This document shows, one piece after another, positions 9,945 to 30,334 of a DNA stretch of 64,000 nt (the stretch's first letter is position 1; each line of letters begins with the position of its first letter). The DNA lies in contig JAJDBF010000031.1 in assembly GCA_029261535.1 (NCBI GenBank), positions 35,577 to 99,576 of the forward strand, given 5' to 3'. The notes below the pieces were generated by a model that saw nothing but the letters and a program-made list of their open reading frames with translations, did no database searches and was not told where the DNA came from. The DNA is from Nitrospinaceae bacterium. GTDB lineage: Bacteria; Nitrospinota; Nitrospinia; Nitrospinales; Nitrospinaceae. The position numbers and the translations under genes are program-made.

Positions 9945-12329
9945 ATGAACACCCTGCACCTCGTATTCCCGGTTCTGATCGTCATCGCCGTTTTTGCCAT
10001 GCGCTGGCCGCACTTGCGGTTTCCGCTAGACGAAGATATGGCGACCTATACCTACATCGCCAGGTTCCGTAATCGTGGCCTCAAGTGGAAACGCGATGCG
10101 TTTCTTTTTCTGTATCCCATCTGGCGACTGCAGTTGATCGACCGCATTTACGGCAAGCCCGAAGGAGGCCCGGCGCGAGCCCGGCTTTTCATTGCGGGTC
10201 ACCACGCCATCACGGGCATCGCGACCTACGCGCTGGTGTTCACCCTGTCCGGAAATATCTGGTCAGCTTTTGTTGCAGGATTGCTCTCGGCTTTTTTCCT
10301 CACCTCTCCATCTCTGGAAGCGGAATCTTTCAGCACCGAGCCCTGCTACCTGCCTTTTCTGTTAACCGGATTCTGGCTGGCGTTACTCGGACCGGCTTAC
10401 GCTGTGTTTGCCGGTCTTGCCTGGGGATTGATGATCATCGGTAAACTCACTACTGCGGTTTATGTTCCGGCCTTCCTTATTTTGATGTGGGTGGAGCAAG
10501 GAGCGGAGGCGACCTTCAGTGCCTTCGTTGCCGCAGGTTTGATCGTGTCTGCCTCGACTGCTTTCGATGCGGCTCGGGGTTTTCTCGATGCCGAATCCCT
10601 GACGCAAATAAAGGCACGCATGATCGCGACCCTGCGCACCGCGCAACGCGACCCATTACTCCCGCGAATGGTCGGTGACCTGAAACTGATTGGCAAAGAA
10701 ACTCTGCCGCTGTGGCTGTTGGGACTTCCCGCGCTTGCCGGTGCCCTGATCGGACCCAAAGGCGACTGGCTGATCGTCCTCATCGGAATCACACTGTTTA
10801 TCCTTTTGGCACAGCGGGCCTTCACGCGTTATCACTACACGCCGTTCATCGCCATCCTGACCATCACCACTGGTCTTGGGCTGGCGCAATTGAGTGCGCT
10901 TGGTGGCTGGCTTGGACCGACCATCATTTGCGCATGGTTCGCTACACTCGTGCTCACCATCAAGCTACAACTGCCGTTTTACCTGAGACCAACGGACAAA
11001 GAAACTCTGGCGCGCTACGGCAAATTTGAACAACTGATCTACCTGCCCTATCTCGGCAAACTATTAAAACGGCTACTGCGGCTTCGTGGCAAAGACGAAG
11101 GCCGACTGTACGTCTGGGGCAACTTCACCCAACTCTACCATTACACCGATTGCCCGGCGGCCGACACCTATGTCTATTATGCAATGGGGCCGTGGTTGAA
11201 CCCGGGACTGGAACCGATCTTCGATACCATCATCGGCGGCCTGATGCGACACCAGCCAGCTTATCTTGTGCAAGCTTACCCGGATTTTGACCCCACTCTG
11301 CTCAAAGAAATCACCGGCCTCGAATACGCCCTGGTCAAAACCGTGCTGGCCCGTTATCCGGTTTACCGCCTGAACCAGGCCACCACGCCAGCGCAGGATC
11401 CACTCAAACTGACCTGGATGGAAAAATGTGGATTGATGGAGCGCCTGACCAAGGGCCGCCATATGCCTGGCATCTCCGATACCGACCTTTTGCGCGGACG
11501 CGAGTTGAAAGCCTTGTCCGAGTGCAGAAAACTGGTCAACCGTAATCCGTCGGACCGGGACGGACGTATTTTTCTCGGGGAGCTGTGCAGTCGTTTCGGC
11601 CTGCAACGTCAGTCGGCGGACATGTTCGAGTGGGTGGTGGCGCACCACCCTCAATTACCGCAAGTGCGTCTCCTGTTGGCAGGACAAAAAATCATTCTCG
11701 GAGATAATGACGAAGCGCGGTTCCTCATCAAAGATGAAATCCGCCTGTTCGGACAATCAACTGAAACGGTACAGATTCTGGGACGGCTCGAAAAAGCTGA
11801 AGGTGAATTTCGCAAAGCCATCGACCATTTCCAGAATGCCATCGTCGATGCACCGGAACGCTGGGACCTCAGGCTGGAACAGGCCGACTGTTATGAACGC
11901 CTGATGGAACCCGCCTCGGCGCGCAAACGATTCCTGCAAGTATGGGAAGGCGCGACAGAAAAAAGTGAAGACGGATTCCGCGCTCAATCAGCGGTGGGCC
12001 TCGCCCGTATCGGTGCCATTGTCAATCCGGAATCGGCCAGCCTCGGCGACTTCTGCCACAAGGCACCGGACAACACCGCCCTCGCCTACGCCCATGCCTC
12101 GGCTTTGGAACGCGAGGGTCATAACGATCAAGCGCGCGACCTGTTTGAATTGCTGACAAACCGGATGCAAACCGACATCTTGCAAGCGAGCGCCTGGTTT
12201 CGCCTGGCACGACTCTCTGAAGGAGAAAAGCGCGAGCGTTGCCTTACGGAATGTATAAGGCGCAACCCCTATCACTACGCCGCGCAGGAAATGAAATCAG
12301 TGTGGGAGGAAAGCAATGTCCCGGCCTAA
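9945..12329 (+). CDS. Polytopic membrane protein with C-terminal TPR domain, probable GT-C transferase
   Basis: From ATG 9945 (MNTLHLVFPVLIVIAVFAM) the protein has 794 residues. The N-terminal half has about ten membrane segments. An early periplasmic loop RFPLDEDMATYTYIARF (about 27-43) contains an acidic DED motif where GT-C enzymes carry their catalytic carboxylates. A soluble loop (about 385-500) and a TPR array follow (about 510-794). The final segment ASAWFRLARLSEGEKRERCL then NPYHYAAQEM is the tail shared with four other proteins of the locus. A TTG at 9894 would add 17 residues, but ATG begins at a clean membrane start. The stop overlaps the next gene by 14 bases. Probable role: lipid-linked sugar transfer across the inner membrane. 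Confidence 0.62.
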   Translation: MNTLHLVFPVLIVIAVFAMRWPHLRFPLDEDMATYTYIARFRNRGLKWKRDAFLFLYPIWRLQLIDRIYGKPEGGPARARLFIAGHHAITGIATYALVFTLSGNIWSAFVAGLLSAFFLTSPSLEAESFSTEPCYLPFLLTGFWLALLGPAYAVFAGLAWGLMIIGKLTTAVYVPAFLILMWVEQGAEATFSAFVAAGLIVSASTAFDAARGFLDAESLTQIKARMIATLRTAQRDPLLPRMVGDLKLIGKETLPLWLLGLPALAGALIGPKGDWLIVLIGITLFILLAQRAFTRYHYTPFIAILTITTGLGLAQLSALGGWLGPTIICAWFATLVLTIKLQLPFYLRPTDKETLARYGKFEQLIYLPYLGKLLKRLLRLRGKDEGRLYVWGNFTQLYHYTDCPAADTYVYYAMGPWLNPGLEPIFDTIIGGLMRHQPAYLVQAYPDFDPTLLKEITGLEYALVKTVLARYPVYRLNQATTPAQDPLKLTWMEKCGLMERLTKGRHMPGISDTDLLRGRELKALSECRKLVNRNPSDRDGRIFLGELCSRFGLQRQSADMFEWVVAHHPQLPQVRLLLAGQKIILGDNDEARFLIKDEIRLFGQSTETVQILGRLEKAEGEFRKAIDHFQNAIVDAPERWDLRLEQADCYERLMEPASARKRFLQVWEGATEKSEDGFRAQSAVGLARIGAIVNPESASLGDFCHKAPDNTALAYAHASALEREGHNDQARDLFELLTNRMQTDILQASAWFRLARLSEGEKRERCLTECIRRNPYHYAAQEMKSVWEESNVPA

Positions 12330-14712
12330 AAAATGCGTGGCCGTTTTCGCCACCGAACCTGTCACCGGGAAAATTGGCGGGCTTGGGGTGCGTCAACTGG
12401 AAGTGGCACGCGAGTTGTCGCGTCATTTTGAGGTGCGCCTGCTCACTCCGTTCAAGGTCACCGCGAACGACGAACCGTTTCCGATCAAACAAATTATTTA
12501 CGAACAACCCGCTACCCTGACACCGCATGTGAAATGGGCGGATTCCATTTACGCTATCGCCCTGTCCGTATTGCCGATTGCCCGGCGACATAATAAACCA
12601 GTGGCAGCAGACCTGCTGGTGCCTGAATATTTTGAAAACCTGGAAGGCATGCCGCTCGATATTTTTCACGCTCAGGAAAAATGCGACCGCTTCGGGCACA
12701 CCATTTCGCGCACCGCAAAATTACTGAACTCGGCGGATTTCTTTCTCGCACCGACCGAACGTGGCCGGGATTACTATCTCGGTCAACTGACTTTGCTGGG
12801 TCGCCTGCACCCGGACGACTACAAGCACGATCCGCAATTCCGCTCGCTGATCGATGTCGCGCCTTTTGGCATCCCAGACCGTGAACCGCGCAAAGGCCAA
12901 CCGCTGTTTCGTGGTCAATTGCCCAACGTCGGTGCGGATGATTTTATCCTGCTGTGGGGCGGGTCGCTCGCCAACTGGTTTGATGCCATGACCCCACTCA
13001 AAGCTGTTGCCCGACTCAGAAAAAAATACCCGAAGCTCAAATTGATCTTCACCGGAAGCAAACACCCGGTCTGGGGCAAACTTCCTTCTGCCTACGAGGA
13101 AGTGGTTAAGTTTTCCAAACAGAAAAAGATGTTTGAGGAAAATATTTTTATTTTTTCGGACTGGGTGCCTTATGAAGAACACGACCGTTATTTAACGGAA
13201 TCCTCTGCCGGGGTCTCTACGTTTTACGATCACATTGAAAATCATTTTTCCTTTCGCATTCGAGTGCTCGACTATCTCTGGGGCAACCTGCCGGTTCTGA
13301 CCAACCCCGGCAACACGCAAAGCGAATTCATCGAGCGGCAGAATCTGGGATGCGTTGTTCCGTTTGAAAACGAAAAAGCCCTTGCAGATTCCATCGAATG
13401 GATGATGTGCAACCCGGATGAGATGCAATTGCTCAGGAACAATATTCAGCAAGTGAAAAAAAGTTTTCACTGGTCAAAGGTGCTGGCACCGCTGGTCCGG
13501 TTTTGTCACGAACCGAGGCGCACTGTCTCGTTGTTCGACGATCAGGGTATTCCCGATGATCGTAAGCAGATGTCGGCAACCTTTGTCTTCGACCCGAACC
13601 AGTTCGCGGATACCGTGCCGAATCATCCGGCCTTTCAGCTCACCCTGGCAAGCACTGCGCACAAGGCGGGGGACACCGCGTCCGCAGCCTCGCACCTTCT
13701 GCAATACCTCGACCTGTACGGCACCGGTCTTGAGTCTTCGCTGTTCAAAAATCCTCTATTTGAGTTGACCACGGATTTTCCATTTGCCTTGTTAAAGGAA
13801 CTGATGCCAGATCATCCGCACGCTCTTTTGCTTGATGCCAAACTGGCGCTGGAGTCCAACGATCCTGATCGGGCGCAGTCGCTGGTGGAAGAGGAAGTCT
13901 CGCTGTTTGGCGAGTGTCCGGAAGCTGTGTTTCTTGAAGGTCTCATCTATCAACAGCGGGGAATGCACGCCGAGGCGGTGACACCGTTTCAGCAGGTCGT
14001 CGACAGTTTGCCCGGTCACCTGCCGTTTCTTTTGCCACTGGCGGACTCTCTGGTCGCCTCTGGAAATTCCGGCAAGGCGCGCCGGTTATACACCCGCATC
14101 TGGCGCGAATCACTCACCGGTCCGCACTCTGGCGAAGAATGGTTGCGCACCCGCGTTGCCCTGGCCATCTCAAAAATGGACAGAGGCCTCCGACCGGAGC
14201 TTGACACCCTCAATAAATATTTCAGTCGCGATCGCACCAACGAAACCCTGGCGCACCTTGTCGCCGCGCAACTGGAGCTGGAAGGTAAACGGCTGGAAAA
14301 AAACGGTGATGGCGCAACCGCCAAATCGTTCTACCAGACCGCCTGGAAGCAAAATGGAAAAACGTCTGGCGAAGGCTGGATCCGGGTGGTCGCCGCGCTC
14401 AACTTGGCAAAGCTTGAAAGAGACAGTAAACCGGAAATCGAAACACTCAATCATTGTCTGAGCTGTGACCCGGAAAACGAGCGGCTTGCCTATGCGGTCG
14501 CTTCCACCCTGGAGCGGCAGGGCCAGAAACTCGAAGCACGTAATATGTTTAAAAGATTCACCACCTCGTTCAAAGATCGCTCCATTCTTGGTAGTGTGTG
14601 GTACCGACTCGCGCTCCTGTCACCAAAAAGCAAGCAAAAACAAATGGTTAGGAAGTGCCTGGCGTTTCACCCCAACCACCGGGCGGCACGCGACCTCCTG
14701 CGCTCCCTGTAA
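12316..14712 (+). CDS. GT4-type glycosyltransferase fused to a TPR domain
   Basis: This 798-residue protein has an N-terminal GT-B glycosyltransferase of about 400 residues. It starts with VAVFATEPVTGKIGGLGVRQ (glycine-rich acceptor loop). DIFHAQEKCDRFGH lies around 115, and the donor half has LLWGGSLANWFDAMTPLKAV (about 215-234) and FRIRVLDYLWGNLPVLTNPG (about 314-333). A TPR region fills about residues 425-798. Its end (GSVWYRLALLSPKSKQK ... HPNHRAARDLL) closely matches the end of the preceding membrane protein, so the two C-termini are homologous modules. The start overlaps the upstream gene by 14 bases, so the pair is co-translated. Sugar and acceptor are unknown. Confidence 0.8.
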   Translation: MSRPKKCVAVFATEPVTGKIGGLGVRQLEVARELSRHFEVRLLTPFKVTANDEPFPIKQIIYEQPATLTPHVKWADSIYAIALSVLPIARRHNKPVAADLLVPEYFENLEGMPLDIFHAQEKCDRFGHTISRTAKLLNSADFFLAPTERGRDYYLGQLTLLGRLHPDDYKHDPQFRSLIDVAPFGIPDREPRKGQPLFRGQLPNVGADDFILLWGGSLANWFDAMTPLKAVARLRKKYPKLKLIFTGSKHPVWGKLPSAYEEVVKFSKQKKMFEENIFIFSDWVPYEEHDRYLTESSAGVSTFYDHIENHFSFRIRVLDYLWGNLPVLTNPGNTQSEFIERQNLGCVVPFENEKALADSIEWMMCNPDEMQLLRNNIQQVKKSFHWSKVLAPLVRFCHEPRRTVSLFDDQGIPDDRKQMSATFVFDPNQFADTVPNHPAFQLTLASTAHKAGDTASAASHLLQYLDLYGTGLESSLFKNPLFELTTDFPFALLKELMPDHPHALLLDAKLALESNDPDRAQSLVEEEVSLFGECPEAVFLEGLIYQQRGMHAEAVTPFQQVVDSLPGHLPFLLPLADSLVASGNSGKARRLYTRIWRESLTGPHSGEEWLRTRVALAISKMDRGLRPELDTLNKYFSRDRTNETLAHLVAAQLELEGKRLEKNGDGATAKSFYQTAWKQNGKTSGEGWIRVVAALNLAKLERDSKPEIETLNHCLSCDPENERLAYAVASTLERQGQKLEARNMFKRFTTSFKDRSILGSVWYRLALLSPKSKQKQMVRKCLAFHPNHRAARDLLRSL

Positions 14713-14891
14713 ATCAACGCCTCTGGCTTTTGCTCAAGATTTTCTTGTAGAAACCCGAAAAGATATTGATACCCCTTTAGGGTAAACTCTTTTGTTCATA
14801 ATCCTTTTTCAAGGGACTTTGTGGTCGGCAGACCTCGCGGTCAGCAGATTTTGCTGTCAATCTTGTCTGCCACCTATAGTCAGGACACGAT

Positions 14892-16703
14892 ATGAAAATC
14901 CTCGTTTGCCAACCTCCGGGGCGGTTCCCCGGAGATCGTTACGTTTGCCCGTTTCCCAGCAGATGGACCAGCATGTTCCAGAGCTATCCGGTTTTCATCT
15001 ACTACCCTTACCAGTTGGCGTACCTGAGCACATTGCTCAAGCGGGAATTCCCGAACGATTACGTCAAACTGATTGACGGCACCTATCTGCGCTTCACGGC
15101 GGAGGATTACATTCAGTACATGGAACTGGAAAAGCCGGACTGGCTGATTTTTGAAGTCGACACGGTGACCTATAACGAAAGTCTGCGCGTCGCCAAAGCC
15201 CTGAAGGCCAAGTACGGAACGCGGGTCATCATCACCGGGCAATACCCGACGGCGTTTCCGGAAAAAGTGATTGCGGACGGCATGGATTACGCCTGCATCG
15301 GCGAATTCGAATATGCGGTGGTCGACATCCTGAACGGGCTCGATCCGAAAACCATTTCCGGTGTCTACCCGAACAGCTACCGCAAGGTGTTGGATATCGA
15401 TTCCCTGCCCGACCCGGAAGACGAGGATATCCGGCGCATCGATTACAGTTATTGCGGCGGACACCGCTGGACCAAATTCCGCGAGATCGAAGTCCACGCT
15501 TCACGCGGTTGCCCCTACACCTGCGACTTCTGCGTGGCGGGCACGGTCTACTATGAAAAAGAAAACTGGCGCTTCCGCAGTCCGCATCGCATCGTTGCCG
15601 AGATAGAAAACCTCAGGCGCAAGTATCCGGAGATGGAAGGTTGCTGGTTCAACGAAGAGACCCACATCATCCGCAAAAAAGACATCATGTCGTTTTGCCA
15701 GGCATTGATCGACTCCGGCAACAATGACCTGCGCTATGAGGCGATGGCCAACCATCAGCGCATTGATGAAGAAATTCTGGAGATGATCAAAAAAGCCGGC
15801 TACTACAAACTGCGGCTTGGCATCGAAACCATCGATGAAGCCACCGGGCAGAGCATCGGTCGAAAAACCAAAGCTGATCGCCTGCACAGCCTGCTTCGCT
15901 CCGCCAAAAAACTGGGTATCGAAATCTACGGCACGTTCATGATCGGTGCTTCCGGATCGACGCCGCAAGGGGATTTGAAGACTATCGAATATGGCAAGAA
16001 ACTGATCTCGGAAGACCTCATTTCCAGCTGGCAATGTTCGATCTCGGTGCCGCATCCGGGCACCACCTTTCATAAAAAAGCAATGGAACATGGATGGCTG
16101 GCCACCAATGATCTCGAATCCTTCAACGGCTCCAGCGGAACCGTTGTCAGTTATCCCAACTACTCCAGCGAACAGATCATGGAGTCGGTGCAACTGATGA
16201 GCCGCGAATTCCGCGATGCCCGCACGCAGGATACGGTCCGACCGAGGCGATCCATCGCAGCAGAAAAAACTGCCATCCTGAAACAAGACAAACCGGAAAT
16301 CGACAGGCGGGTCAAGGCGATGAACGCGCGTTTTGAAACCGACCCGCAAGGGGCGAGCGAGGAAGCTAAAAAGATTCTGGAAGTATTTCCACAGTTGCTC
16401 AGTCCGCGTTATGTCATTGGCAAAGTGGCGGCACAAGAGGGTCAATTGCAGAAGGCTCGCGAGCAGTTTGAATACATTTACAAGACAGCGGTCGACTACG
16501 ACGATGCGCTGATGTTCGGGGCAGGTTCGCATTATCGGCTCGGCATGATCTGCATGGAAGAAAACAAACGCGACGAAGCCCTGCAACATTTTAAAATGTG
16601 CATGCACCTCAGTCCCGATCACAAGGAAGCAAGGAAGCAATACTGGCAACTGATTCCGGAAACCGTGCCCGAGGCCGAACCGGCTGAAGCTGTGGTGTCC
16701 TGA
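14892..16703 (+). CDS. B12-binding radical SAM protein with C-terminal TPR module
   Basis: This 603-residue enzyme has an N-terminal cobalamin-binding-like Rossmann domain (about 1-160; VIITGQYPTAFPEKVI and YACIGEFEYAVVDIL). The radical SAM cluster motif is C207-x3-C211-x2-C214 (ASRGCPYTCDFC). The core is TIM-barrel-like to about 440 (LRLGIETIDEATGQSIGR). The C-terminal TPR module (about 480-590) ends GSHYRLGMICMEENK then MHLSPDHKEARKQ. Such enzymes methylate or rearrange unreactive carbons using SAM and cobalamin. Substrate is unknown; position between glycosyltransferases suggests a sugar, lipid or surface molecule. The upstream gap (14713-14891) shows no convincing promoter or repeat. Confidence 0.85.
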   Translation: MKILVCQPPGRFPGDRYVCPFPSRWTSMFQSYPVFIYYPYQLAYLSTLLKREFPNDYVKLIDGTYLRFTAEDYIQYMELEKPDWLIFEVDTVTYNESLRVAKALKAKYGTRVIITGQYPTAFPEKVIADGMDYACIGEFEYAVVDILNGLDPKTISGVYPNSYRKVLDIDSLPDPEDEDIRRIDYSYCGGHRWTKFREIEVHASRGCPYTCDFCVAGTVYYEKENWRFRSPHRIVAEIENLRRKYPEMEGCWFNEETHIIRKKDIMSFCQALIDSGNNDLRYEAMANHQRIDEEILEMIKKAGYYKLRLGIETIDEATGQSIGRKTKADRLHSLLRSAKKLGIEIYGTFMIGASGSTPQGDLKTIEYGKKLISEDLISSWQCSISVPHPGTTFHKKAMEHGWLATNDLESFNGSSGTVVSYPNYSSEQIMESVQLMSREFRDARTQDTVRPRRSIAAEKTAILKQDKPEIDRRVKAMNARFETDPQGASEEAKKILEVFPQLLSPRYVIGKVAAQEGQLQKAREQFEYIYKTAVDYDDALMFGAGSHYRLGMICMEENKRDEALQHFKMCMHLSPDHKEARKQYWQLIPETVPEAEPAEAVVS

Positions 16704-16726
16704 GCCTTTCACGCGAGCCCGTTATT

Positions 16727-18166
16727 ATGTCCGGAACCTGCATCGTATTTTGCACCGCAAGGCCAGCCGATGTAAACCGTGCGTCTGAATTCACAAATTT
16801 TTCCGAAGACTACGTTCGCTATTTCGGGCCAGACTCCTCGCCCCTCAAAGATTCCAAAAATTTTAACTTCATCGACTGGGGTGACGGGCCTTTTACGTTT
16901 ACAAAAGCGGTCTGCCATTTCGCCCGATTAAAATCCCTGGCACCGACGCGGGTGGTCCTGCCGCTCAACAACGAAAATGGCGATGGCTATACCTTACTTC
17001 GCCTGTTTGCTCTCGGGCTTTCACGACACGCGGTGGAAGTGCCTCCGGGTGGCAAACCAAAAAATATTTCGACCAGCCAGATAATATCGCAAAAAGAAAT
17101 CATCTGGCACACCGCGTTGATCTGGTTTTTCGATTGTATCGCTCCGATTCTCAGGCTCTGGTTGAGCACGCAAGCCCCGCCCGTTAGAGGCCACGCCCGG
17201 TCGCCGATCAAGCCCGAGACGGTCCAGGATTTTTACAACGAAGAGTCGCCCACCGTTTCCATCATTATCCGGACATTCAATGAAGCGCGCACTCTCGGTC
17301 AGACGCTTTCAGCCATCGCCGAACAAAAGGGACCGACGCGCGAGGTCATTGTGATTGACTCGGGTTCGGAAGATGACACGGTCGCCATCGCCTGTTCGCA
17401 TTCTCTGCGCGTGTATAAAATTTCAAAAGAATCGTTTCATTATTCAAGTGCCCTCAATCTGGGAGCGCGACTGGCACGCGGTTCGTATCTTGTCAACATC
17501 AGCGCGCATGCGGTACCGCAGTCCGACAGCTGGCTTGCCAACCTGATCGCGCCCATGCAGGAAGATGAAAAAGTCGCCGGAGTCTGTGGTCGCGAAATTC
17601 CGCTCGAAGACTGGGCGAGCCCGTTCGAGCGCAAATTGTTGCACGACATGTTCCGCCAGAAAAAACGGGTGATGACCGAGTCTTTCTTTTTCTCCAACGC
17701 CAATTCGGCGGTGCGGCGTGACCTGGCACTGGAGGTTCCGTTTGATGAGACCATCGATTGGGGAGAGGATCAGGTCTGGGCGCACGCAGTGCACCAACTT
17801 GGATTTAAAACGGTGTACACGCCGGATAGCCCGGTGGCGCACTCGCACAATCTGTCGATGATCGATTGCTTTGTCCGCACCCTCAAATTTCAGCGGACTC
17901 TGTTTCGCCGCATGCATCAGGACCGCGCCGACATCACCAATACGGAATTTCATTTGCGCTTGCCAGCACGCGCACTTTCGTTGCGTCGGTTCATCGGAGA
18001 GCACCGCCTGATGCCGGAGTTGCGCGCCTTTTTTACTTCCGCCTTTTGTGAGTACCTCAATTTCCTCGGAAGCGATATGGCGCACCGGGAAATTTTTCTT
18101 GCCCAACGCAAACCCTCCTGCGGCGGAAACAGTTGTCAGCCAAAAAAGGAAACGGTTCTGCCATGA
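16727..18166 (+). CDS. GT2-type glycosyltransferase with an extra N-terminal domain
   Basis: This 479-residue protein has a family 2 (GT-A) domain from about residue 172. It opens with PTVSIIIRTFNEARTLGQTL, then EVIVIDSGSEDDT. The region where a DxD metal motif is expected instead reads VNISAHAVPQSDSWL, a variant seen in some rhamnosyl-type GT2 enzymes. EDQVWAHAVHQLG supplies the acid-base region. The first 165 residues are a separate domain (RVVLPLNNENGDGYTLLRLF, then a hydrophobic helix) that I cannot assign. It looks similar in pattern to the N-terminus of the methyltransferase at 21343. It lies 23 bases after the radical SAM gene, so it is probably in the same operon. Confidence 0.78.
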   Translation: MSGTCIVFCTARPADVNRASEFTNFSEDYVRYFGPDSSPLKDSKNFNFIDWGDGPFTFTKAVCHFARLKSLAPTRVVLPLNNENGDGYTLLRLFALGLSRHAVEVPPGGKPKNISTSQIISQKEIIWHTALIWFFDCIAPILRLWLSTQAPPVRGHARSPIKPETVQDFYNEESPTVSIIIRTFNEARTLGQTLSAIAEQKGPTREVIVIDSGSEDDTVAIACSHSLRVYKISKESFHYSSALNLGARLARGSYLVNISAHAVPQSDSWLANLIAPMQEDEKVAGVCGREIPLEDWASPFERKLLHDMFRQKKRVMTESFFFSNANSAVRRDLALEVPFDETIDWGEDQVWAHAVHQLGFKTVYTPDSPVAHSHNLSMIDCFVRTLKFQRTLFRRMHQDRADITNTEFHLRLPARALSLRRFIGEHRLMPELRAFFTSAFCEYLNFLGSDMAHREIFLAQRKPSCGGNSCQPKKETVLP

Positions 18167-18170
18167 GAGC

Positions 18171-18260
18171 ACCTCTAAAAACCGCGTTTGACCGTAAGTT
18201 CCCCTTGGTTTTAAAGGGGGAGCGAACTACCGGAACAGAAATTTTCAAATCATTAGAGGT
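18171..18260 (+). repeat. Dispersed palindromic repeat family C, copy 2
   Basis: A 90-bp element has perfect 8-base inverted ends: ACCTCTAA (18171-18178) and TTAGAGGT (18253-18260). It fills the gap between two genes of the operon. Its right end places AGAGG about five bases before the next ATG, so the repeat appears to supply that gene's ribosome-binding site. Confidence 0.75.
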
Positions 18261-18263
18261 CCC

Positions 18264-21346: not shown

Positions 21347-22323
21347 ATCTGCTCCATTTATTTGAAGGCAATACCGAACAATACAAGAAGCCGCTCTATA
21401 TCTATTCGGCGCACCATTCCAAAACCCGGCACTACCTCGATACCGTTTCCCGGATTTACCACAACCAGAAGATCACCGTTTTATTACGGGGAGAAACTTC
21501 CTCCTTGCAAGTTCCCGCTAATATAGAAGTCAAAACGCTGGACTTAAGCGAAGCTTCGTCAGAAATAACGATCACGGCTTTCAAACAGATCGTGACTTCT
21601 GGAAATTTCGACAGCCTACTGATTCAAAATGATGAATCGGCGGAATCCTATGAAGTGGTCGACCTCATGCCGCTGTTGAGTCTGTTTGGCGACAGTCACA
21701 AGATCGCTTTTCTCAATGCCAGTTTTCAAATCGTCCCGGTCAACGAACTGATCGCGATCTGGAAAAATCCGATTTATTTGCAAGATGCTGAGCTGACGGT
21801 CGACTGTCCCGGTTTAATGATCGACCGCGAGTTGGCGCATCTGGAGCGACTGGCCCGCACGCGGCCTCCTTCTGACACTGTGATCGAGATCGGCCGGTAT
21901 TACGGACGTTCCACCATAGCGCTCGGACAAGGCGTGAAACGAAGTGAACAGGGTAAGGTCGTGAGCATCGATCCATTTTCTGCGCCGGATATTCAAGAGC
22001 GCATCACCGCGCATTGCGTTTCGCGTTTCGTAGAATTATGGGATCAGACCTCACGTTCAGGCTTTGAACGCTGGCAGACAGAGCGCAAGGACCACAGCAT
22101 TGGATTTGTTTTTATCGACGGTGACCACCGATACCCTGCCGTTGTTCAGGATATTGAACGGTGGGGGAGCTTGCTGGTACCGGGCGGCATCATCGCCCTG
22201 CACGACTACTACGAAACACAGCCCGACTGCCTCAAGGCCTTGAACGAGCAGATCATCTGGTCAGGAAAATTTGAAGATATCGAATTGAAAACCAGCCTGC
22301 TGATCGCCCGCAAAAAACAATAA
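21343..22323 (+). CDS. Class I SAM-dependent methyltransferase with N-terminal extra domain
   Basis: This 326-residue protein has a Methyltransf_24-type domain in the second half. SAM motif I is TVIEIGRYYGRSTIALGQGV (about 179-198), motif II is GKVVSIDPFSAPD, the IGFVFIDGDHRYPAVVQDIE metal/substrate region lies at about 250-269, and LLVPGGIIALHDYYE follows. The first 150 residues form another domain (LLIQNDESAESYEVVDLMPL) similar in pattern to the N-terminus of the GT2 protein at 16727. It probably methylates a sugar or lipid made by the neighbouring enzymes. It is the last gene of the plus-strand operon and faces the minus-strand radical SAM operon across 27 bases with no obvious terminator. 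Confidence 0.78.
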   Translation: MNLLHLFEGNTEQYKKPLYIYSAHHSKTRHYLDTVSRIYHNQKITVLLRGETSSLQVPANIEVKTLDLSEASSEITITAFKQIVTSGNFDSLLIQNDESAESYEVVDLMPLLSLFGDSHKIAFLNASFQIVPVNELIAIWKNPIYLQDAELTVDCPGLMIDRELAHLERLARTRPPSDTVIEIGRYYGRSTIALGQGVKRSEQGKVVSIDPFSAPDIQERITAHCVSRFVELWDQTSRSGFERWQTERKDHSIGFVFIDGDHRYPAVVQDIERWGSLLVPGGIIALHDYYETQPDCLKALNEQIIWSGKFEDIELKTSLLIARKKQ

Positions 22324-22350
22324 TCCTGCGACCTTCCAGCCAGTAAATTT

Positions 22351-23841
22351 TCAGGAACGAATACGCAGAGGCGTTTTGGGTTGGCGTTCCTGATAGTCGG
22401 GTGCTCCCAGAATCCGGTACACAAGGTAAAGAAAAGCGAACGCTTTTTTATGCGCAAAATTTTCGCGGAGCGCATTTTCAAAGCAATCCCGCGCCGCTTC
22501 CATTTCCCCGCGAAGCACATCCATTTCTCCAAGGTGGAACCACACTCCACTCCTTAAATTATCTGGCAGGTTGCCATCGAGCAACATCAGGAATTGCAGA
22601 CGGGCCTCTTCATAGCGCAATTTCCGTTTGGCTTCTGACGCTTCCCGATACAGATCGTAAATCGTCACTGTATCGAGCGTGTCGGCTGACATTTCTTCGC
22701 GCATGGTTTCAAAATATCGGGCCGGGTGCGTGGCAAGACATTCCTGACAATCTCTCGGCTGTCTCTGTTCTGGCTGACAAAACATCAGATAGCGGAGGTA
22801 ACGAAAGGGAAAAGAATTCCAGTAGGCTTTGGCACCCGTCTCCTCCGGCATGTGCGGCATATCCAGACTGCCACAACACACTTTGGGCGGCACATTCAAT
22901 CCACTGAACAACAGGGTGTTGTCCACATAAGAACACGGCGTGGTCGCCTCTTTCAGTTTTTGATATTCATTGAAGGACACGTGCAAACCCTTCGCTCGCC
23001 AGCGGTCGGCAATCTCGTTCAGAAAAGAACGACCGCCTTCATAATTTTCTGCAAATGACTGGCGATAGACTGCCTCGACCAACGCACCCCCTGCCTCTCG
23101 GTTGACCGACATCGGGAACAGCACGATATGTTCCACACCTCGTAACATGGCTTTTTCAAACAGGGCATTCATCTGGCTCAGGTTTTCGAGGTTCACCGTG
23201 ATGTGCAGTTCAAGGTGCGGAGTGGTTGATGCCAGTTCCTGTTTCATTTCCTGCACCAGCTCGATTTTTTCCCAGAGGTTCTGGCTGTATTCCGGGCGGC
23301 CACTGCCATGACCCACCACGGTGTCGCCTTCAAACGAAATCTGTAGACAGTCGAGCTTGCGGTTCATCAACTCGCCAAGACGGCGACGGGTCAAGCCCAC
23401 TCCGCTGGTCGTCACCAATGTGTATTTGTCGATTCCTTTTTCCAGAAACTCATTCAGGTAAGGACTGTCCAGCGTTTCCCCCACACCGACAAAGCACCAG
23501 TGGGTGGCATCTTTAATCCAGGGAAGAATTTCCTCCCACGATTGCGGCGATAAAAAATCGCGCCCGCCATAAGGCTGGGGGTCGATATGAAAACCGGCGT
23601 TGCACATTTCGCAGGCGATGTTGCAGGTATAGGATGGAGAAATCGCAAAATGTGTCGGGTAGGGTGCGGTCAGTTCAGGAAACACATCGGGCCGGTGCGC
23701 GGCCTGTTTCAGCAGGGTTCTCAGCGAGTGTGCGCTTTCTTCAACACCCTCGACCGCACGCAGGGCATCCGCCACCCGGTCATTCAGTATCAGGTTTAAT
23801 ATTTCCTGCTCGGTTATCGCCTGCGCTGTTATTTGCAACAT
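22351..23841 (-). CDS. Radical SAM/SPASM-type protein with C-terminal TPR module (paralogue 1)
   Basis: From ATG 23841 (MLQITAQAITEQEIL) it has 496 residues. The radical SAM cysteines are C73, C77 and C80 (YTCNIACEMC). FVGVGETLDSPYLNEFLEKG and LQISFEGDTVVGHGSGRPEY follow. A C-terminal SPASM-like set has a CC pair (PPKVCCGSLDMPHM) and RDCQECLATHP for auxiliary clusters. The last 90 residues are the shared TPR tail (SGVWFHLGEMDVLRGEMEAA, then FAHKKAFAFL). Length, order and many motifs match the gene at 24880, so the two are diverged duplicates. The frame extends upstream to 23973, but that part overlaps the previous gene. SPASM enzymes often modify peptides or sugar-like substrates; the substrate here is unknown. 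Confidence 0.82.
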   Translation of the reverse strand: MLQITAQAITEQEILNLILNDRVADALRAVEGVEESAHSLRTLLKQAAHRPDVFPELTAPYPTHFAISPSYTCNIACEMCNAGFHIDPQPYGGRDFLSPQSWEEILPWIKDATHWCFVGVGETLDSPYLNEFLEKGIDKYTLVTTSGVGLTRRRLGELMNRKLDCLQISFEGDTVVGHGSGRPEYSQNLWEKIELVQEMKQELASTTPHLELHITVNLENLSQMNALFEKAMLRGVEHIVLFPMSVNREAGGALVEAVYRQSFAENYEGGRSFLNEIADRWRAKGLHVSFNEYQKLKEATTPCSYVDNTLLFSGLNVPPKVCCGSLDMPHMPEETGAKAYWNSFPFRYLRYLMFCQPEQRQPRDCQECLATHPARYFETMREEMSADTLDTVTIYDLYREASEAKRKLRYEEARLQFLMLLDGNLPDNLRSGVWFHLGEMDVLRGEMEAARDCFENALRENFAHKKAFAFLYLVYRILGAPDYQERQPKTPLRIRS

Positions 23842-23866
23842 AAGTGGTTGAGTGTCCGGTCCGGCG

Positions 23867-24883
23867 TTATTGTTTGACCACGAAAGCGGCACCGTCGTAA
23901 CCCAGTAAGACGGTTTCCGGTTTGTCTTTAAAGAAATAATCGACGGCGACACGTTCTCCCAGGGTCGCTCCAAAACTGTAGTTCTGAAACATCATGATGC
24001 CCCCGGGCACCATGCGCGGGTACACCTGCTCACATAAAAATTGCGTGACCGCAAACTGGTCACAGTCAATATGAACCAGTGAGAACGGGCCTTCGCTGGA
24101 GGCACGAAAGGTCTGCATCACATCTCCAGGAACAAATCGAACATTGTCAAAGTCTGACAAAAGACTTTGCACGCGCTCCAGACTGGTGCCGGAAAAATCG
24201 TTCACCTCAACCAGATCCAGTGCCGAACTTTGCGGAATACCCTCGAAGGTGTCGTATAAAAAAAGCAGTTTTTCATCGAAGCCGAGCTTCTGCATAGTCA
24301 GCGCGAAAAAACAGGCACTGCCTCCCTGGAACACGCCAAATTCTGCGACATCGCCATCCAGTTCCATCGTCTGCTTGAGATACTGATAACAGCAGTACCA
24401 GTTTTTTTCGTCGGTGTACCAGACAGCGCCGTGCCGGGCCAACGCCTCGGTCGATTGTTCCACAAGCGTTGCGAATTCCTTTTCCGCCAGCGGCTGGGCA
24501 AACCGATGGACAAATAATATTTCTTTGTCCTGTAACGGCGAGAAGGCAACCTGACTCAACACTTCGGTTAAAGAGGGGCTGTCGATCATCACGGCGACCA
24601 GGTCAATATTGGGCACCAGATGCAAGGCTTCTTCAAAAGACATTACCGGGCAGGACTTGATCGGTCCCGACTCACCCGCTCGTTTGTTGTCGATGATGCA
24701 GACTGGGACGAAGCGATCACCAAGCACAGAAAAAAATTCGTTGACGAGAGATGCCGTCTGGTAGGTGTAGCCATACAGAGCCACCCGCGTTCCGGGGCGT
24801 TCACGGATGCGGTCAAACAAACATTGCTTCAGTTGATCCAGATTGCGGATCGCCTTTTGCTCTATACGCTGGCCTTCGTTCAT
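23867..24883 (-). CDS. TylF/macrocin O-methyltransferase-like enzyme with N-terminal Rossmann-like domain
   Basis: From ATG 24883 (MNEGQRIEQKAIRNL) it has 338 residues. The C-terminal domain (about 150-338) has the TylF-type features GDVAEFGVFQGGSACFFALT (SAM binding), LLFLYDTFEGIPQSS, PFSLVHIDCDQFA (metal site) and MVPGGIMMFQNYSFG. The N-terminal 120 residues have a nucleotide-binding-like pattern (RVALYGYTYQTASLVNEFFS; VPVCIIDNKR; CPVMSFEEALHL) seen in sugar-modifying fusions. Start and upstream stop overlap as ATGA, so it is translationally coupled to the radical SAM gene before it. Being sandwiched between two radical SAM paralogues suggests one biosynthetic branch acting on one product. 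Confidence 0.83.
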   Translation of the reverse strand: MNEGQRIEQKAIRNLDQLKQCLFDRIRERPGTRVALYGYTYQTASLVNEFFSVLGDRFVPVCIIDNKRAGESGPIKSCPVMSFEEALHLVPNIDLVAVMIDSPSLTEVLSQVAFSPLQDKEILFVHRFAQPLAEKEFATLVEQSTEALARHGAVWYTDEKNWYCCYQYLKQTMELDGDVAEFGVFQGGSACFFALTMQKLGFDEKLLFLYDTFEGIPQSSALDLVEVNDFSGTSLERVQSLLSDFDNVRFVPGDVMQTFRASSEGPFSLVHIDCDQFAVTQFLCEQVYPRMVPGGIMMFQNYSFGATLGERVAVDYFFKDKPETVLLGYDGAAFVVKQ

Positions 24884-26367
24884 ACCAGCAATCCTCCCGG
24901 CTTGATCTCCGGATGGTAGGTCAAAGGAAACTTGTCTTGTCGCCGATCTACTTTGGGAAGGCCGGTGATGCGCATCAGCAGGGACAGATAAGCCCATCCC
25001 CGTTTGTGATCGAAGTTATGCTGGATACATTTTTGAATGCAGTCCAGTGCCTCTTCATCATTGCCCCGGCCCAGCTCAATTTCCGTCAGATGAAAATAGA
25101 CACCGCCTTTCAAGGCATCGTCTTCGGTAAGCGTCAACACTTCTTTAAATCGCGCCTCGGCCTGATTCCACAATCCTTCCAGCTTCAACCGCGAGGCCTC
25201 CTGATAAACAGGAATGGGATCTACTTTAAGAGGAGCTGTATGGAGTGCTTCACCGCAGGTTTTGTAATAACGACGAGTCTCGAGAATCCAGCAGTCCTGA
25301 CATTCGCGCGGCAAACCTTTTCGTTCGCCGACAAAATGCAGATAACGGAAATAGCGAAAGGGTAGCGAGTTCCAGTATTCTTCGGGCGGCGTGTCCCAAA
25401 ACGTCAGCGGCATTTCGATCTTGCCGCAACAGATATTGGGTCCGCTGGACAAGCCGTGTATCTGAATGGTGTTGTCGACATAACTGCAGACCTCTGCACG
25501 CTCGTGGTATTCAGAATAAGCGTTGACCTGCAAACGCAGTCCGTTCCGGTTCCAGCGGTCAACAATGTTTTTGAACTCTGCCGAGCAACGATCAAAATCC
25601 GGCCCGAATGATTTTTCATAAAGCATGGGGCTGATGCGCCCACTGTCTTCCACCACCGACATGGGAAGCAGGAGGATGTCGCGGATATCGCGCTCCCTTG
25701 CCTGGGTGAACAGGTTATCGAGGTCACTCAGGTTTTCCCGGTTGACGGTGACGTTGAGACCCATCACCGGAGTTTCACTGCTCAATTCTTCTTTCACCTT
25801 TCGGACCAGATCGATCTTGTTCCAGATATTTTTGATGTAGGTGTCTTTGCCATCACCATGGCCCACAGACGTTTTTCCATCGAAAGAAAAATTCAGTATC
25901 TGCACCCCGGTCTCGATCATCATCCGTATTTTTTCGCGGGTCAATGGAACGCCGCTGGTGGTCACCACTTTCACGGGACCGTCCACGTCTTCCAGAAAAT
26001 CGAAGAGGTGAGGCGAATCCAGAGTCTCGCCAATGCCGACAAAAAACACATGGGTGCCGGTACGTATCCAGGGTTTGGCTTTTTCAAACTGCTCTGGCGA
26101 AAGATATTTGTAGTTGGGGTCGATCTCGGTCTTGTTGTGGAACCCGGTGATGCACATCTTGCAACCAATGTTGCAGGTGTACGAGGGGTTGACCACGACG
26201 TATTCAGGCAAGTCCGCCGTCAGTGAAGCCAGCGGTTTATCACGCCCTCTGGCCCGCGCGATGAGATTTTTCAGGACAGGATCGGGCTCGCTCTCCCTGG
26301 CCAGCGCGCACGCCGCGTCTTCCAAACGGTCGGTCATGAGCAGGTCAAGCACTTCTGGCAAGGGCAT
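24880..26367 (-). CDS. Radical SAM/SPASM-type protein with C-terminal TPR module (paralogue 2)
   Basis: This 495-residue protein has radical SAM cysteines C65, C69 and C72 (YTCNIGCKMC), then FVGIGETLDSPHLFDFLEDV and LNFSFDGKTSVGHGDG. The SPASM-like cysteines include GPNICCGKIEMPLT and RECQDCWILETRR. The TPR tail (GGVYFHLTEIELGRGNDEEA, then FDHKRGWAYL) is shared with four other proteins here. GGAG lies seven bases before ATG 26367, a good ribosome-binding site. It is first in a three-gene minus-strand operon with the TylF-like methyltransferase and the second radical SAM paralogue, and divergent from the NHL protein. Its N-terminal helix (PEVLDLLMTDRLEDAACAL) is also conserved in the paralogue. 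Confidence 0.83.
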   Translation of the reverse strand: MPLPEVLDLLMTDRLEDAACALARESEPDPVLKNLIARARGRDKPLASLTADLPEYVVVNPSYTCNIGCKMCITGFHNKTEIDPNYKYLSPEQFEKAKPWIRTGTHVFFVGIGETLDSPHLFDFLEDVDGPVKVVTTSGVPLTREKIRMMIETGVQILNFSFDGKTSVGHGDGKDTYIKNIWNKIDLVRKVKEELSSETPVMGLNVTVNRENLSDLDNLFTQARERDIRDILLLPMSVVEDSGRISPMLYEKSFGPDFDRCSAEFKNIVDRWNRNGLRLQVNAYSEYHERAEVCSYVDNTIQIHGLSSGPNICCGKIEMPLTFWDTPPEEYWNSLPFRYFRYLHFVGERKGLPRECQDCWILETRRYYKTCGEALHTAPLKVDPIPVYQEASRLKLEGLWNQAEARFKEVLTLTEDDALKGGVYFHLTEIELGRGNDEEALDCIQKCIQHNFDHKRGWAYLSLLMRITGLPKVDRRQDKFPLTYHPEIKPGGLLV

Positions 26368-26599
26368 GCAGGATCTCCAGGGAGTACGGTCAATATTGAC
26401 AGGGGACCCTCATCCCATAGGACAATAGAACCCTTATTTGACTTTATCGACAGAAAAATCGGGAGACTTTAGGGCCATGGCGAGCTAAATTCCAGGCCAC
26501 TTTGAGGGCCGACAACCCTACACGAAAGATTGTATAACATTTTGAATTATGATTAAATAACACGTCACTGCCGCACTTTTAACCGGCCTCCCCCATCCT

Positions 26600-29500
26600 A
26601 TGGCTCATCCCTCAAAACGCCTCAAAGACCTGTCTCCACAAGAAATCGCCGCCCTGTTTTTGAGCGAATGTGCGACCAATTCTACCTCCAAAAATGCGCG
26701 GGATCTGCTATCCGCCTTTCGCGATAAAGTGACGGCAGACGATTTCCCGGAAGGACAACCTGAGCCGGCGCAAAAACTTTTAAAGACCCTGACCGATCTG
26801 TTCGGCATTCAGCCGGGAGACCCCTTCAAAAGAAAAACAGAAGCGAATCTCAAACCTTCGCCTCCTTCCGGGATGACGATTACACCGGACGGCGGCCTGA
26901 TTCTTGCCGATGACTTCAATCACCGCATCCAGATTTTTGATAGTGACCGCAATTTAAAAACACAATTCGGATGCAAGGGCAAACAGCCGGGCGAATTTCA
27001 ATATCCCAAAGGTGTCGCGCTCGATAACAACGGGCACCTGTATGTCGCTGATGGCTGGAACCACCGCGTCCAGAAATTCGACCTCGAAGGAAATTTCATT
27101 TCCACGTTCGGAGAATTCGGCGAAGGCCTCGGTCAGATGAACGAACCCTGGGACGTGCTGGTCGATTCCAACGGTCGCGTCATCGTGGTCGAACGTTACA
27201 ACCACCGCATCCAGTTTTTCGATGCCAACGGCAACTCCGAGGGCTGGACCGGTCAACGCGCAACGGTGTTCGAGGATCAACTGGCGTTCATTTACGAAAC
27301 CTCTTCCGCGCTGGCACCACGCCCGGCACTGGAATTCCCCACCAGCGTTGCCGAAGACCCACACGGTAATTTCTTTGTGACGGACAGTGCCAATCACCGC
27401 GTGCTCAAGTTCGACCGCGAGTGGCAACTACTAAAAAGTTTTGGCAGTCAGGGCGAGGCACCAGGACAGTTTCAATATCCCATGGGCCTGTCGGTGGATG
27501 ATAGCGGACAGGTATACGTTGCCGACCTCAACAATAATCGCATTCAACAATTCACCGGCGACGGCGTGTTTCTCTCAGCTTTTACCGAAGGCGAAGGCGG
27601 CACAGCTCTTAAGATGCCCGGCCTCGTGCTTGCCGGGAATGACGGCGCACTCTGGGTCGCGCTCACGCTCGACCCGGTCCTGCACCCGTTCCAATCTCCA
27701 ACGCTCGCCACGGCTCAAACTTATGAAGCGCTGTCGACTTTGCAACCGCAATCAATTGAGCTGAGGTTGGCCCACAGCCAGCATCTTGAAGACAGCGGAC
27801 AAACCCAGGCGGCGTATGAAATTTACCAGCAGGCGGTCGACCTTTATATAAGGAACGAATCGGGCCTCTCGGAAAAATTCGCCAACCTGCCCGGCACCTG
27901 GGCGCGTCTCACTCAAAAAACGGACAGCAAAATTGAACACGCTGAACAATTGTCAAACGCGCTTGCTCAACTGGGCAAACTGCACGGGGCACGACGCGAG
28001 CATCTACTCGAACAATTTCAGGAGTGGACTGATTTTCTGCCAGCATATTGTGGTCGTTTGGTAGAAGAGCAGAACAAAACGCTGAACAATAACGAAGACC
28101 CGCTTGAATTCGACCGCCAATTTTTCGAGATGAAAAGTCGCGACAAAGAACTGTTCCGCAACACCCGCCTGGCGATGGTCGACTACCAGGAGTCCGTCGC
28201 CCGATTTGAACAGGCCGTGCGCGAAACCCTCCTGCTACCGCTTGATGAAAAGTTTCTTACGCAATTGATGCCAGAGCTTCAGCAGGGCTTCGGTCATGTC
28301 GGCGATCTCCTGCTTCAACTATTGAAGCGCAAGGAACGCAGTGAAGAGTTTCTCATCAAAACCCTACAGGAAGAACGCGGTGCCAAGGAACACTGGGCCG
28401 AGTTCGTCGCCAATCACAGCATCAGCAACCGGATTTCTGAACAGGTGCGACAGTTGATCGTCGAATTTTTGGCACTGACGCGACTGCTCGACACCGCCGC
28501 GAAACGGTTTCCAGACAAGACATCGGTTTTAGAAACACTGCGGACGACGTTGGGACTGGAGGACGCGACCCACCTGTTCGGGCAGGTCCTGCTGGGCTTT
28601 CAGGAAGACCCGGACCTCACCGCCCACCTGCAGGGCATCTTCATGGGGTTGCTCGATGGCTGGAAAACGCAGTGTGGCTCTGCATCTGCACCGGCCGCCT
28701 CTTTCGCCAGCGATGACATCTCAGCGTTCGAGTTTGACCGCGAAGAATTGTCTCCACAAGAATTGACCCGGTCTTACCGCATCGGCGGTGCTCCTATCAA
28801 CGTTCAGGCGGACGGAGTTTTAATGGGCGGCGAATTGTATCCCACCCAATTAATTGCCGACAAAGAAAATGACATTGGCGCACGGCTGGAAGGCATCCTG
28901 CAAAACCAAAGCGTCTACAGCGAAAAAACTGCCGACATCATCAAGCAGTCCGGGGAATTGCGCCAACAAAAATTGGACCTCGAAACACGGCTTTATTCCG
29001 TCGACGTGCGCGACAAAGCCACACCTGTGCAGATCGGCAACAACGTGCGCGTGATCGATTTCCAGATCAACCTTCTGCAACGCATGATCCAGACCCTTGC
29101 CGTCAACGAGATGAATAATCTGGTGCGGCTGGTCATCGGCGCATCCTTGCTGTCATCCACCGATGCCGGGAAAAATATTTTAATCCGACTCAATTTCCCG
29201 AAAACTCTGGGAAAACTTTTTGGCGGTGAGCTGGAACGTCTGCATCAACTCAAACAGGAATGGAAAGACATCGGCCTGTTCCACGCCGGATTGCAGGCGC
29301 GGCTGGCAGGCATCGCCCACAGGTTGGAACCGGAAAAAGTAAAAGAGATAGAAGCTTTGCAAAGTCAGGTGGCAGAATCCGATTTCAACTACCTGCAAAA
29401 AACATCCACCGTTTACCGGCAGGCCAACCTGACAGGGCTCTTACAAAAATTGAACGCGGTGATTAATCCGGCGACCACGGCATCGTCGACCCCGACCTTC

Positions 29501-30334
29501 TCACATTACGTTGGTAGTTTTGGTCACGCCGACAGCGCGTTCTTGTATCCCTTCGGCACCGCTCATTTAAAGAACGGCGACCTGCTGGTCAGCGACAACA
29601 AGAAACATTGCATTCTGCGTTTCTCACCAGACGGCGTGTACCAGAGTAGTTTCGGCAGGTTCGGCAATGGACCCGGCGCGCTGAACTCGCCGTTCGGCAT
29701 CGCCGTGTCGCGAGATCAAACAATCTACGTTGCCGACAACGGCAACCGGCGCATTGCCGTGTTCGATGCCGACGGACATTTTAAAAATGCTATCGGCAAT
29801 ACAGGCGCGGAAGAAAACAGAATAGGCTTGACCTACAGTGTAGCAGTCGATACCAAAGGCAACGTGTGGGTGCCCGACACCGATAAGCATCGCATACTGA
29901 TGTTCTCACCCACCGGTGAATTGCTCAACGTGATAGGAAAAGAAAACAATCGGACAACCGAGCTGTTGCATCCCGTCGCCGTGCGCCCTCTTGACGACGG
30001 CGGCTTTATTACCAGCGACCGCTCGGAGCACATCATCAAACGCTTCTCTGCCAACGGCGACCTACTTAAAACTTTTGACAGCACGCAGACGCCGTTGGGA
30101 GAGGCCTACAGCCTGGCTTACCACCCCGAGCACGGACTGTTTATCTCCGACACTTTTAATTGCCAGATAGTATGTTTGGATATTGATTTGAAATTGCTCT
30201 GGACGCACAACCACACCGGCAGACGCGGTGGGCAGGTCTTCCGCATCGGCGGCCTCTCACTATATGACAATCAACTCTTCATCGCCGACTACGATAATAT
30301 CCGCGTGCAGGTGTTTGATTTGCTAAAGAGATAA
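26600..30334 (+). CDS. Large NHL-repeat / TPR / helical protein
   Basis: This 1244-residue protein has no signal peptide. Residues about 90-350 are NHL repeats (GLILADDFNHRIQIFD, HLYVADGWNHRVQKFD, VIVVERYNHRIQFFD, FFVTDSANHRVLKFD, VYVADLNNNRIQQFT) forming a beta-propeller. A TPR-like helix pair follows (about 372-420). Residues about 430-965 are long amphipathic helices with little similarity to anything I recognise. A second NHL propeller occupies about 967-1244 (IYVADNGNRRIAVFDADGHF and others). It is probably a cytoplasmic scaffold or sensor. It is divergently placed from the radical SAM/TPR operon and may organise those enzymes. No good ribosome-binding site precedes ATG 26600. Confidence 0.78.
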   Translation: MAHPSKRLKDLSPQEIAALFLSECATNSTSKNARDLLSAFRDKVTADDFPEGQPEPAQKLLKTLTDLFGIQPGDPFKRKTEANLKPSPPSGMTITPDGGLILADDFNHRIQIFDSDRNLKTQFGCKGKQPGEFQYPKGVALDNNGHLYVADGWNHRVQKFDLEGNFISTFGEFGEGLGQMNEPWDVLVDSNGRVIVVERYNHRIQFFDANGNSEGWTGQRATVFEDQLAFIYETSSALAPRPALEFPTSVAEDPHGNFFVTDSANHRVLKFDREWQLLKSFGSQGEAPGQFQYPMGLSVDDSGQVYVADLNNNRIQQFTGDGVFLSAFTEGEGGTALKMPGLVLAGNDGALWVALTLDPVLHPFQSPTLATAQTYEALSTLQPQSIELRLAHSQHLEDSGQTQAAYEIYQQAVDLYIRNESGLSEKFANLPGTWARLTQKTDSKIEHAEQLSNALAQLGKLHGARREHLLEQFQEWTDFLPAYCGRLVEEQNKTLNNNEDPLEFDRQFFEMKSRDKELFRNTRLAMVDYQESVARFEQAVRETLLLPLDEKFLTQLMPELQQGFGHVGDLLLQLLKRKERSEEFLIKTLQEERGAKEHWAEFVANHSISNRISEQVRQLIVEFLALTRLLDTAAKRFPDKTSVLETLRTTLGLEDATHLFGQVLLGFQEDPDLTAHLQGIFMGLLDGWKTQCGSASAPAASFASDDISAFEFDREELSPQELTRSYRIGGAPINVQADGVLMGGELYPTQLIADKENDIGARLEGILQNQSVYSEKTADIIKQSGELRQQKLDLETRLYSVDVRDKATPVQIGNNVRVIDFQINLLQRMIQTLAVNEMNNLVRLVIGASLLSSTDAGKNILIRLNFPKTLGKLFGGELERLHQLKQEWKDIGLFHAGLQARLAGIAHRLEPEKVKEIEALQSQVAESDFNYLQKTSTVYRQANLTGLLQKLNAVINPATTASSTPTFSHYVGSFGHADSAFLYPFGTAHLKNGDLLVSDNKKHCILRFSPDGVYQSSFGRFGNGPGALNSPFGIAVSRDQTIYVADNGNRRIAVFDADGHFKNAIGNTGAEENRIGLTYSVAVDTKGNVWVPDTDKHRILMFSPTGELLNVIGKENNRTTELLHPVAVRPLDDGGFITSDRSEHIIKRFSANGDLLKTFDSTQTPLGEAYSLAYHPEHGLFISDTFNCQIVCLDIDLKLLWTHNHTGRRGGQVFRIGGLSLYDNQLFIADYDNIRVQVFDLLKR

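Follow-up and report, generated by a model that had tools for sequence, protein, structure and literature searches.

What could lead glycosyltransferases and radical SAM enzymes, encoded side by side in a Nitrospinaceae bacterium, to end in the same kind of helical repeat? We addressed this question for a gene island spanning positions 9945-30334 of a 64,000-nt stretch of DNA (the window), in which five enzymes had been predicted to share a C-terminal tetratricopeptide repeat (TPR) module. The answer that we tentatively favour, judging it somewhat short of an even chance, is that the TPR pairs of several island enzymes dock them to a common partner, giving one cytoplasmic modification assembly at the membrane. 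As predicted, the five open reading frames (ORFs) were found. On the plus strand, they encode a GT-C-like membrane protein of 794 aa with a C-terminal TPR array (9945..12329; terminal TPR pair at ∼12060-12293), a GT4-type glycosyltransferase with a homologous array (12316..14712; terminal pair at ∼14476-14700) and a B12-binding radical SAM protein with a CX3CX2C motif and a C-terminal TPR pair (14892..16703; pair at ∼16389-16658). On the minus strand, they encode two radical SAM/SPASM-like paralogues with C-terminal TPR-like pairs (22351..23841, 496 aa, pair at ∼22423-22659; 24880..26367, pair at ∼24976-25215). All five proteins end with the pattern (W/Y/H)(F/Y)(R/H)L...H-x2-(A/G), 7-38 residues before the C-terminus. 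A loosened motif was matched by exactly these five among the 49 window ORFs and by 1 of 58 control ORFs, counts that show presence and not significance because the motif was derived from the five proteins themselves. The motif falls within the final helices of a TPR pair. Pfam TPR scored above cut-off in the GT-C, GT4 and B12 (14892) proteins; the 22351 and 24880 tails reached 15.2 and 12.6 bits, below the cut-off of 27, and the predicted structure of the 24880 protein places helices at residues 385-396, 400-413, 417-433, 437-450 and 455-468.

The original prediction held that the catalytic halves were unrelated and that the module had probably been attached repeatedly. The first claim was not confirmed: the 22351 protein is a full-length paralogue of the 24880 protein (40% identity over 480 aa), and the 9945 protein shares a TPR array with the 12316 protein (31% over 134 aa). 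Because one pair is a duplication and the other has a common array, about three attachments remain instead of five. Within the GT-C family, conservation of the terminal TPR pair was 0.593 compared to 0.499 for the inner repeats.

Whether the tails are related beyond the TPR consensus was examined with tail profiles of the SPASM-like (SP) family and of the GT-C family, both built without window sequences, and with a bridge set of intermediates from other genomes, to which the glycosyltransferase 2 (GT2)-TPR family c16 contributed five sequences, distant GT-C proteins three tails and a B12 protein one. Sixteen other TPR proteins served as controls, a strict set because they were chosen as the best matches of a five-tail profile outside the five. 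That profile was dropped as evidence of relatedness in the genome's own proteins, where the five rank first by construction. The GT-C-tail profile, searched genome-wide, found GT-C, GT4 and then B12 in third place at 26.6 bits, the next match reaching 14.8. SP tails fitted the end of the GT-C array (46.4) better than its inner repeats (at most 35.3; inner maximum 37.2 in a second comparison). Both profiles ranked the c16 GT2-TPR proteins and the GT-C tails of three distant genomes above all 16 controls. In profile-profile comparisons the bridge profile scored 96.8 with SP tails, 77.6 with GT-C tails and 111.6 with B12 tails excluding the window, and at most 43.0 with inner TPR windows of the GT-C family. 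In the own genome it listed the B12 protein first (61.2 bits) and the 24880 protein second (40.5), with ordinary TPRs from 39.4 down and the 22351 protein twelfth (29.6); the GT-C and GT4 tails were absent from the list up to E = 1. For the 22351 tail, the main link runs through its 24880 paralogue. A tail profile built from the five overlapped none of 39 radical SAM matches outside the island compared to three of four inside (Fisher test; positions compared by eye). A search of solved structures by sequence gave, among the best 60, only TPR, PPR, designed or other helical-repeat chains. At the sequence level, these comparisons show that the tails are related through intermediates from other genomes.

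The distribution of the island was surveyed in 77 genomes of the phylum, of which 20 are less than 80% complete and in which split contigs hide neighbourhoods. Presence cut-offs, chosen for this analysis, were 1e-15 for GT-C, 1e-60 for NHL and 1e-40 for SP, and Fisher tests treat genomes as independent, ignoring shared ancestry. The NHL gene (26600..30334, plus strand) encodes a protein of 1244 aa that carries NHL repeats at each end, and the gene is co-inherited with GT-C-TPR: both were found in 43 genomes and neither in 30, one and three genomes having one of them alone, and these four discordant genomes are 59-83% complete. The two genes lie on one contig in 28 of the 43 genomes, 23 of these within 7.3 kb, and each is present in the same 16 of 24 genera. 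An SPASM-like gene (E up to 1e-40) occurs in 15 genomes, all of which have both. Collection scanning for GT-C relatives gave 44 loci, 42 of them titled Nitrospin-, one 'Nitrospirae bacterium' and one 'bacterium'. We then compared 36 stretches fetched around island genes and around paralogue loci. GT-C, NHL, prfB and a spermidine-synthase-like gene stood together in 14; prfB was present in 17 of the 24 stretches with GT-C, and the spermidine-synthase-like gene in 17 of the 25 with NHL. The Nitrospinota island occupies a recurrent chromosomal place, often between prfB and a spermidine-synthase-like/PEPCK block. In the window, the left border is prfB (8239..9360, minus strand) and the right border is the spermidine-synthase-like gene (32797..33726, minus strand), followed by PEPCK, pdxA and rsmA-like genes. 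Between the borders lies variable cargo, including c16 GT2-TPR, c13 SPASM radical SAM, other B12-radical SAM and methyltransferase genes, and the islands L122-L127 hold scarcely any cargo besides GT2 genes. In homologous islands, TPR tails are found on enzymes of quite different kinds: GT-C, GT4, two divergent B12-radical SAMs, the SPASM-like radical SAM and GT2 family c16. Relatives of the 14892 protein in which the tail region also aligned came from the three genomes of the genus and from G009 (66-100% identity); alignments of its other matches reach no further than about residue 460. No account of such a locus was found in searches of the literature, which gave either no results or ones that were off topic as judged by title.

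Gene fusions point to partners within the island. Two GT2 genes lie between the B12-radical SAM genes on the plus strand, GT2a at 16727..18166 and GT2b at 18264..19214. Frames of at least 1100 aa were found in 18 of 44 GT-C genomes, and in all 11 long frames checked a GT2b-like domain (53-56% identity) followed the GT-C TPRs. In one genome (G009) the B12-radical SAM-TPR protein runs on into a GT2a-like domain. A 1021-aa frame near the GT-C-TPR gene of G002 (L135:9922-12987) combines GT2, B12-binding and radical SAM parts with a C-methyltransferase C-terminal domain. The fusions of GT-C-TPR with GT2b and of B12-radical SAM-TPR with GT2a suggest that these partners act together.

On which side of the membrane could such an assembly form? 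A second look at the predicted model of the 9945 protein with VIA-align found a GT-C fold in its membrane part, and D29 and D31, which are conserved in 90% or more of the 31 rows compared, provide the acidic motif of the first extramembrane loop. The 50 matches to the model that Foldseek listed were helical-repeat chains. PMT_2 (PF13231) gave no match in the 9945 protein or in the own genome search; one relative, P0050, has a precomputed PMT_2 domain. Across 31 sequences the loops on the N-terminal side carried on average 0.8 lysine or arginine residues in 47 positions and those on the C-terminal side 28.3 in 188, with the transmembrane limits read by eye from the model helices. As topology controls, analysed with crude hydropathy segments, two membrane proteins had more such residues on the N-terminal side (L195:554-2683, 20 to 6; L087, 17 to 9) and a third was not one-sided (L080, 13 to 15); a fourth was cut at its start and unreadable. 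Because of the charge pattern and the GT2 fusion, the C-terminal side of the GT-C protein, with its TPR array, is predicted to be cytoplasmic, contrary to expectation. Identity to the GT-C enzymes STT3/AglB/PglB and ArnT is 9-16%; compared to these, the 9945 family has a C-terminal TPR array, a GT2 fusion and a charge pattern opposite to that expected. TMTC-type O-mannosyltransferases also combine a GT-C membrane domain with TPRs at the C-terminus; their array lies in the lumen of the endoplasmic reticulum, whereas that of the 9945 family is, by its charge pattern, predicted to be cytoplasmic. No family model used here identified the 9945 protein as a TMTC.

In the assembly that we propose, the core would consist of the predicted GT-C-fold TPR protein, a GT2 and the double-NHL giant, and radical SAM, glycosyltransferase and methyltransferase genes would be variable cargo. 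The TPR pair would be the docking part, and its partner would be either the NHL giant or a protein substrate that the enzymes have in common; the glycosyltransferases would extend a glycan, which the radical SAM enzymes and methyltransferases would modify. The physically organised pathway of the original prediction gains from the tails on unlike enzymes and from core genes that are co-inherited and fused, and loses from the smaller number of attachments and a mixed tail test.

Several observations weigh against this proposal, and those on the tails also feed its first rival, that the tails are TPR pairs of the ordinary kind, gained or diverged independently and alike through the TPR consensus, and that the locus is a plain surface-glycan cluster whose enzymes have no docking partner in common. 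The tail motif is indeed largely TPR consensus, and direct tail-to-tail similarity in sequence is weak. With the SP-tail profile, GT4 came 8th and GT-C 14th in the own genome, in the midst of ordinary TPRs, and the B12 tail was not listed at E up to 10; set beside the third place of B12 with the GT-C-family profile, this gives a mixed comparison with ordinary TPRs. Taken singly, the window tails of GT-C, GT4 and B12 ranked 12th to 15th with the SP profile, and those of GT-C and GT4 ranked 93rd and 24th among 413 control windows with the bridge profile. Single ordinary TPR windows reached 67.8 with the bridge profile, near the 77.6 of the GT-C-tail profile and above four of the five window tails, and the bridge set was itself built in part from three GT-C tails of distant genomes and one tail of a B12 protein. 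The B12 tail of L135 fell below the best controls with the SP profile (12.0 bits) and the GT-C profile (6.6 bits), and is linked solely through the c16 profile (42.0 compared to 26.0 for the best control). With a B12-tail profile of four sequences, ordinary TPRs scored as high as the other tails. Beyond the tails, the 26600 protein, described earlier as NHL-TPR-NHL, has Pfam NHL in eight stretches and no Pfam TPR at E up to 1, so that the TPR part of that description was not confirmed; it is a candidate scaffold, linked to GT-C-TPR by co-inheritance. Pfam TPR is also absent from the second B12-radical SAM, the methyltransferases, GT2a, GT2b and the c13 SPASM cargo. The six fetched islands L122-L127 have no TPR-tailed radical SAM beside the GT-C, GT2b-type and NHL genes, and in G009 the GT-C and NHL genes lie 52.7 kb apart. 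Finally, known GT-C enzymes act on the outer face of the membrane, which would place the TPRs outside the cytoplasm. What speaks against ordinary, independent repeats is the third place of B12 with the GT-C-family profile, the rank of the c16 and distant GT-C tails above all controls and the preference of SP tails for the end of the GT-C array. On balance we consider the ordinary-repeat explanation somewhat unlikely.

A second rival keeps a common function for the tails and lets them recognise a shared protein substrate, most likely flagellins, which the island would glycosylate and radical-modify in the cytoplasm before export. Its model is FlmG, a TPR-containing flagellin O-glycosyltransferase of Caulobacter whose TPR domain binds flagellins (PMC7591256). 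As far as the parts of that source consulted go, FlmG resembles the island enzymes as a glycosyltransferase with a TPR part binding protein substrates in the presence of several flagellin paralogues; it differs in its N-terminal TPR and GT-B type, and no radical SAM, GT-C or NHL partner is mentioned there. Of the 47 genomes that have GT-C or NHL, 45 gave flagellin-domain matches, compared to 15 of 30 others. Among 32 genomes at least 90% complete, one of them with 6% contamination, 18 of 20 carriers had 6-9 matches and the 12 others 0-4. These counts ignore the species tree, and many traits disappear when genomes are streamlined: a T2SSF/type IV pilus marker tracks the island too, more weakly (46/47 compared to 22/30). 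A cytidylyltransferase and a GFO/IDH/MocA oxidoreductase each stood beside the flagellin arrays of three of the four carriers examined, and neither was found at the flagellin loci of three island-less g3 genomes; both families are at home in sugar-nucleotide pathways. The sugar-type genes flanking the arrays make the flagellin explanation slightly more likely. However, the arrays are far from the island, and no glycosyltransferase or radical SAM gene was seen adjoining them when gene starts were read and families partially searched. Two carriers have no flagellin matches (G058, 70% complete; G061, 59% complete), and two genomes have flagellin but no island match: G008 (86% complete, 6 matches) and G025 (96% complete, 4 matches), the latter with the oxidoreductase beside its flagellins. 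Distribution and neighbouring genes make flagellin one possible substrate of a glycan- or protein-modifying assembly; flagellin recognition by the tails in the manner of FlmG we consider unlikely. The tandem flagellin arrays (L186-L194) hold four or five flagellins per locus in four carriers, L194 being a short contig, and the three island-less g3 genomes have two tandem flagellins each.

Improbable as a whole is the most specific version. In it, an inside-out GT-C enzyme would have its active side, TPR array and fused GT2 in the cytoplasm, where a double-NHL scaffold would bring together glycosyltransferases and radical SAM enzymes with TPR tails; the substrate, glycosylated and radical-modified before export, would be a protein and perhaps the multiple flagellins.

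For the radical SAM enzymes of the proposed docking assembly, comparisons leave the kind of substrate balanced. BlsE and DesII are sugar-acting, SuiB and anSME peptide-acting; all four were among the best Foldseek matches to the 24880 model (E 3.6e-10 to 2.7e-8; query TM-score 0.36-0.47, 13-17% identity), the two classes ranking alike. Neither the 22351 nor the 24880 protein matched the PF13186 SPASM domain at E up to 1, and the invariant cysteines of the SPASM-like family, C294, C313, C356 and C359, may still bind a cluster. An assignment of the 14892 protein to HpnJ (TIGR03471) was rejected (152.8 compared to a curated score of 577.6). A further B12-radical SAM family (G000:C26:3530-4849 and relatives) lies outside the island in many Nitrospinales, mostly in two copies per genome.

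The remaining island genes are a second B12-binding radical SAM protein (19211..21346, plus strand), a Methyltransf_24 methyltransferase (21343..22323, plus strand) and a TylF-like methyltransferase (23867..24883, minus strand), whose ORF opens at 24997 and whose start at 24883 is preferred from the G010 homologue. The start of the 22351 protein is most likely not at 23973 but at the ATG at 23841, which is where a 496-aa record for this contig starts. On the plus strand, the genes at 12316, 19211 and 21343 overlap the preceding genes by 4-14 bases, which would fit co-expression. Between the NHL gene and the right border lies an AAA ATPase with a TOPRIM-like C-terminal match (30443-32380; PADLOC RT-Toprim_I-C E 8.9e-34, PtuA E 3.9e-27), which was not seen at the corresponding position in G010 (L078). 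Elsewhere in the own genome, L195:554-4499 encodes two adjoining membrane proteins, the second holding a TPR stretch matched by the five-tail profile. In G041, the island cargo is adjoined by a tandem of three paralogues of 195 aa, each hydrophobic in an N-terminal stretch (L086:15472-17443).

If the docking assembly is real, the island would encode a modification pathway specific to the phylum, whose chemically unrelated enzymes have one kind of docking repeat in common, and a cytoplasm-facing GT-C enzyme would break the rule held for that superfamily. The natural gene fusions suggest which island enzymes act together, and the candidate substrates make the role of the island testable in cultured Nitrospina.

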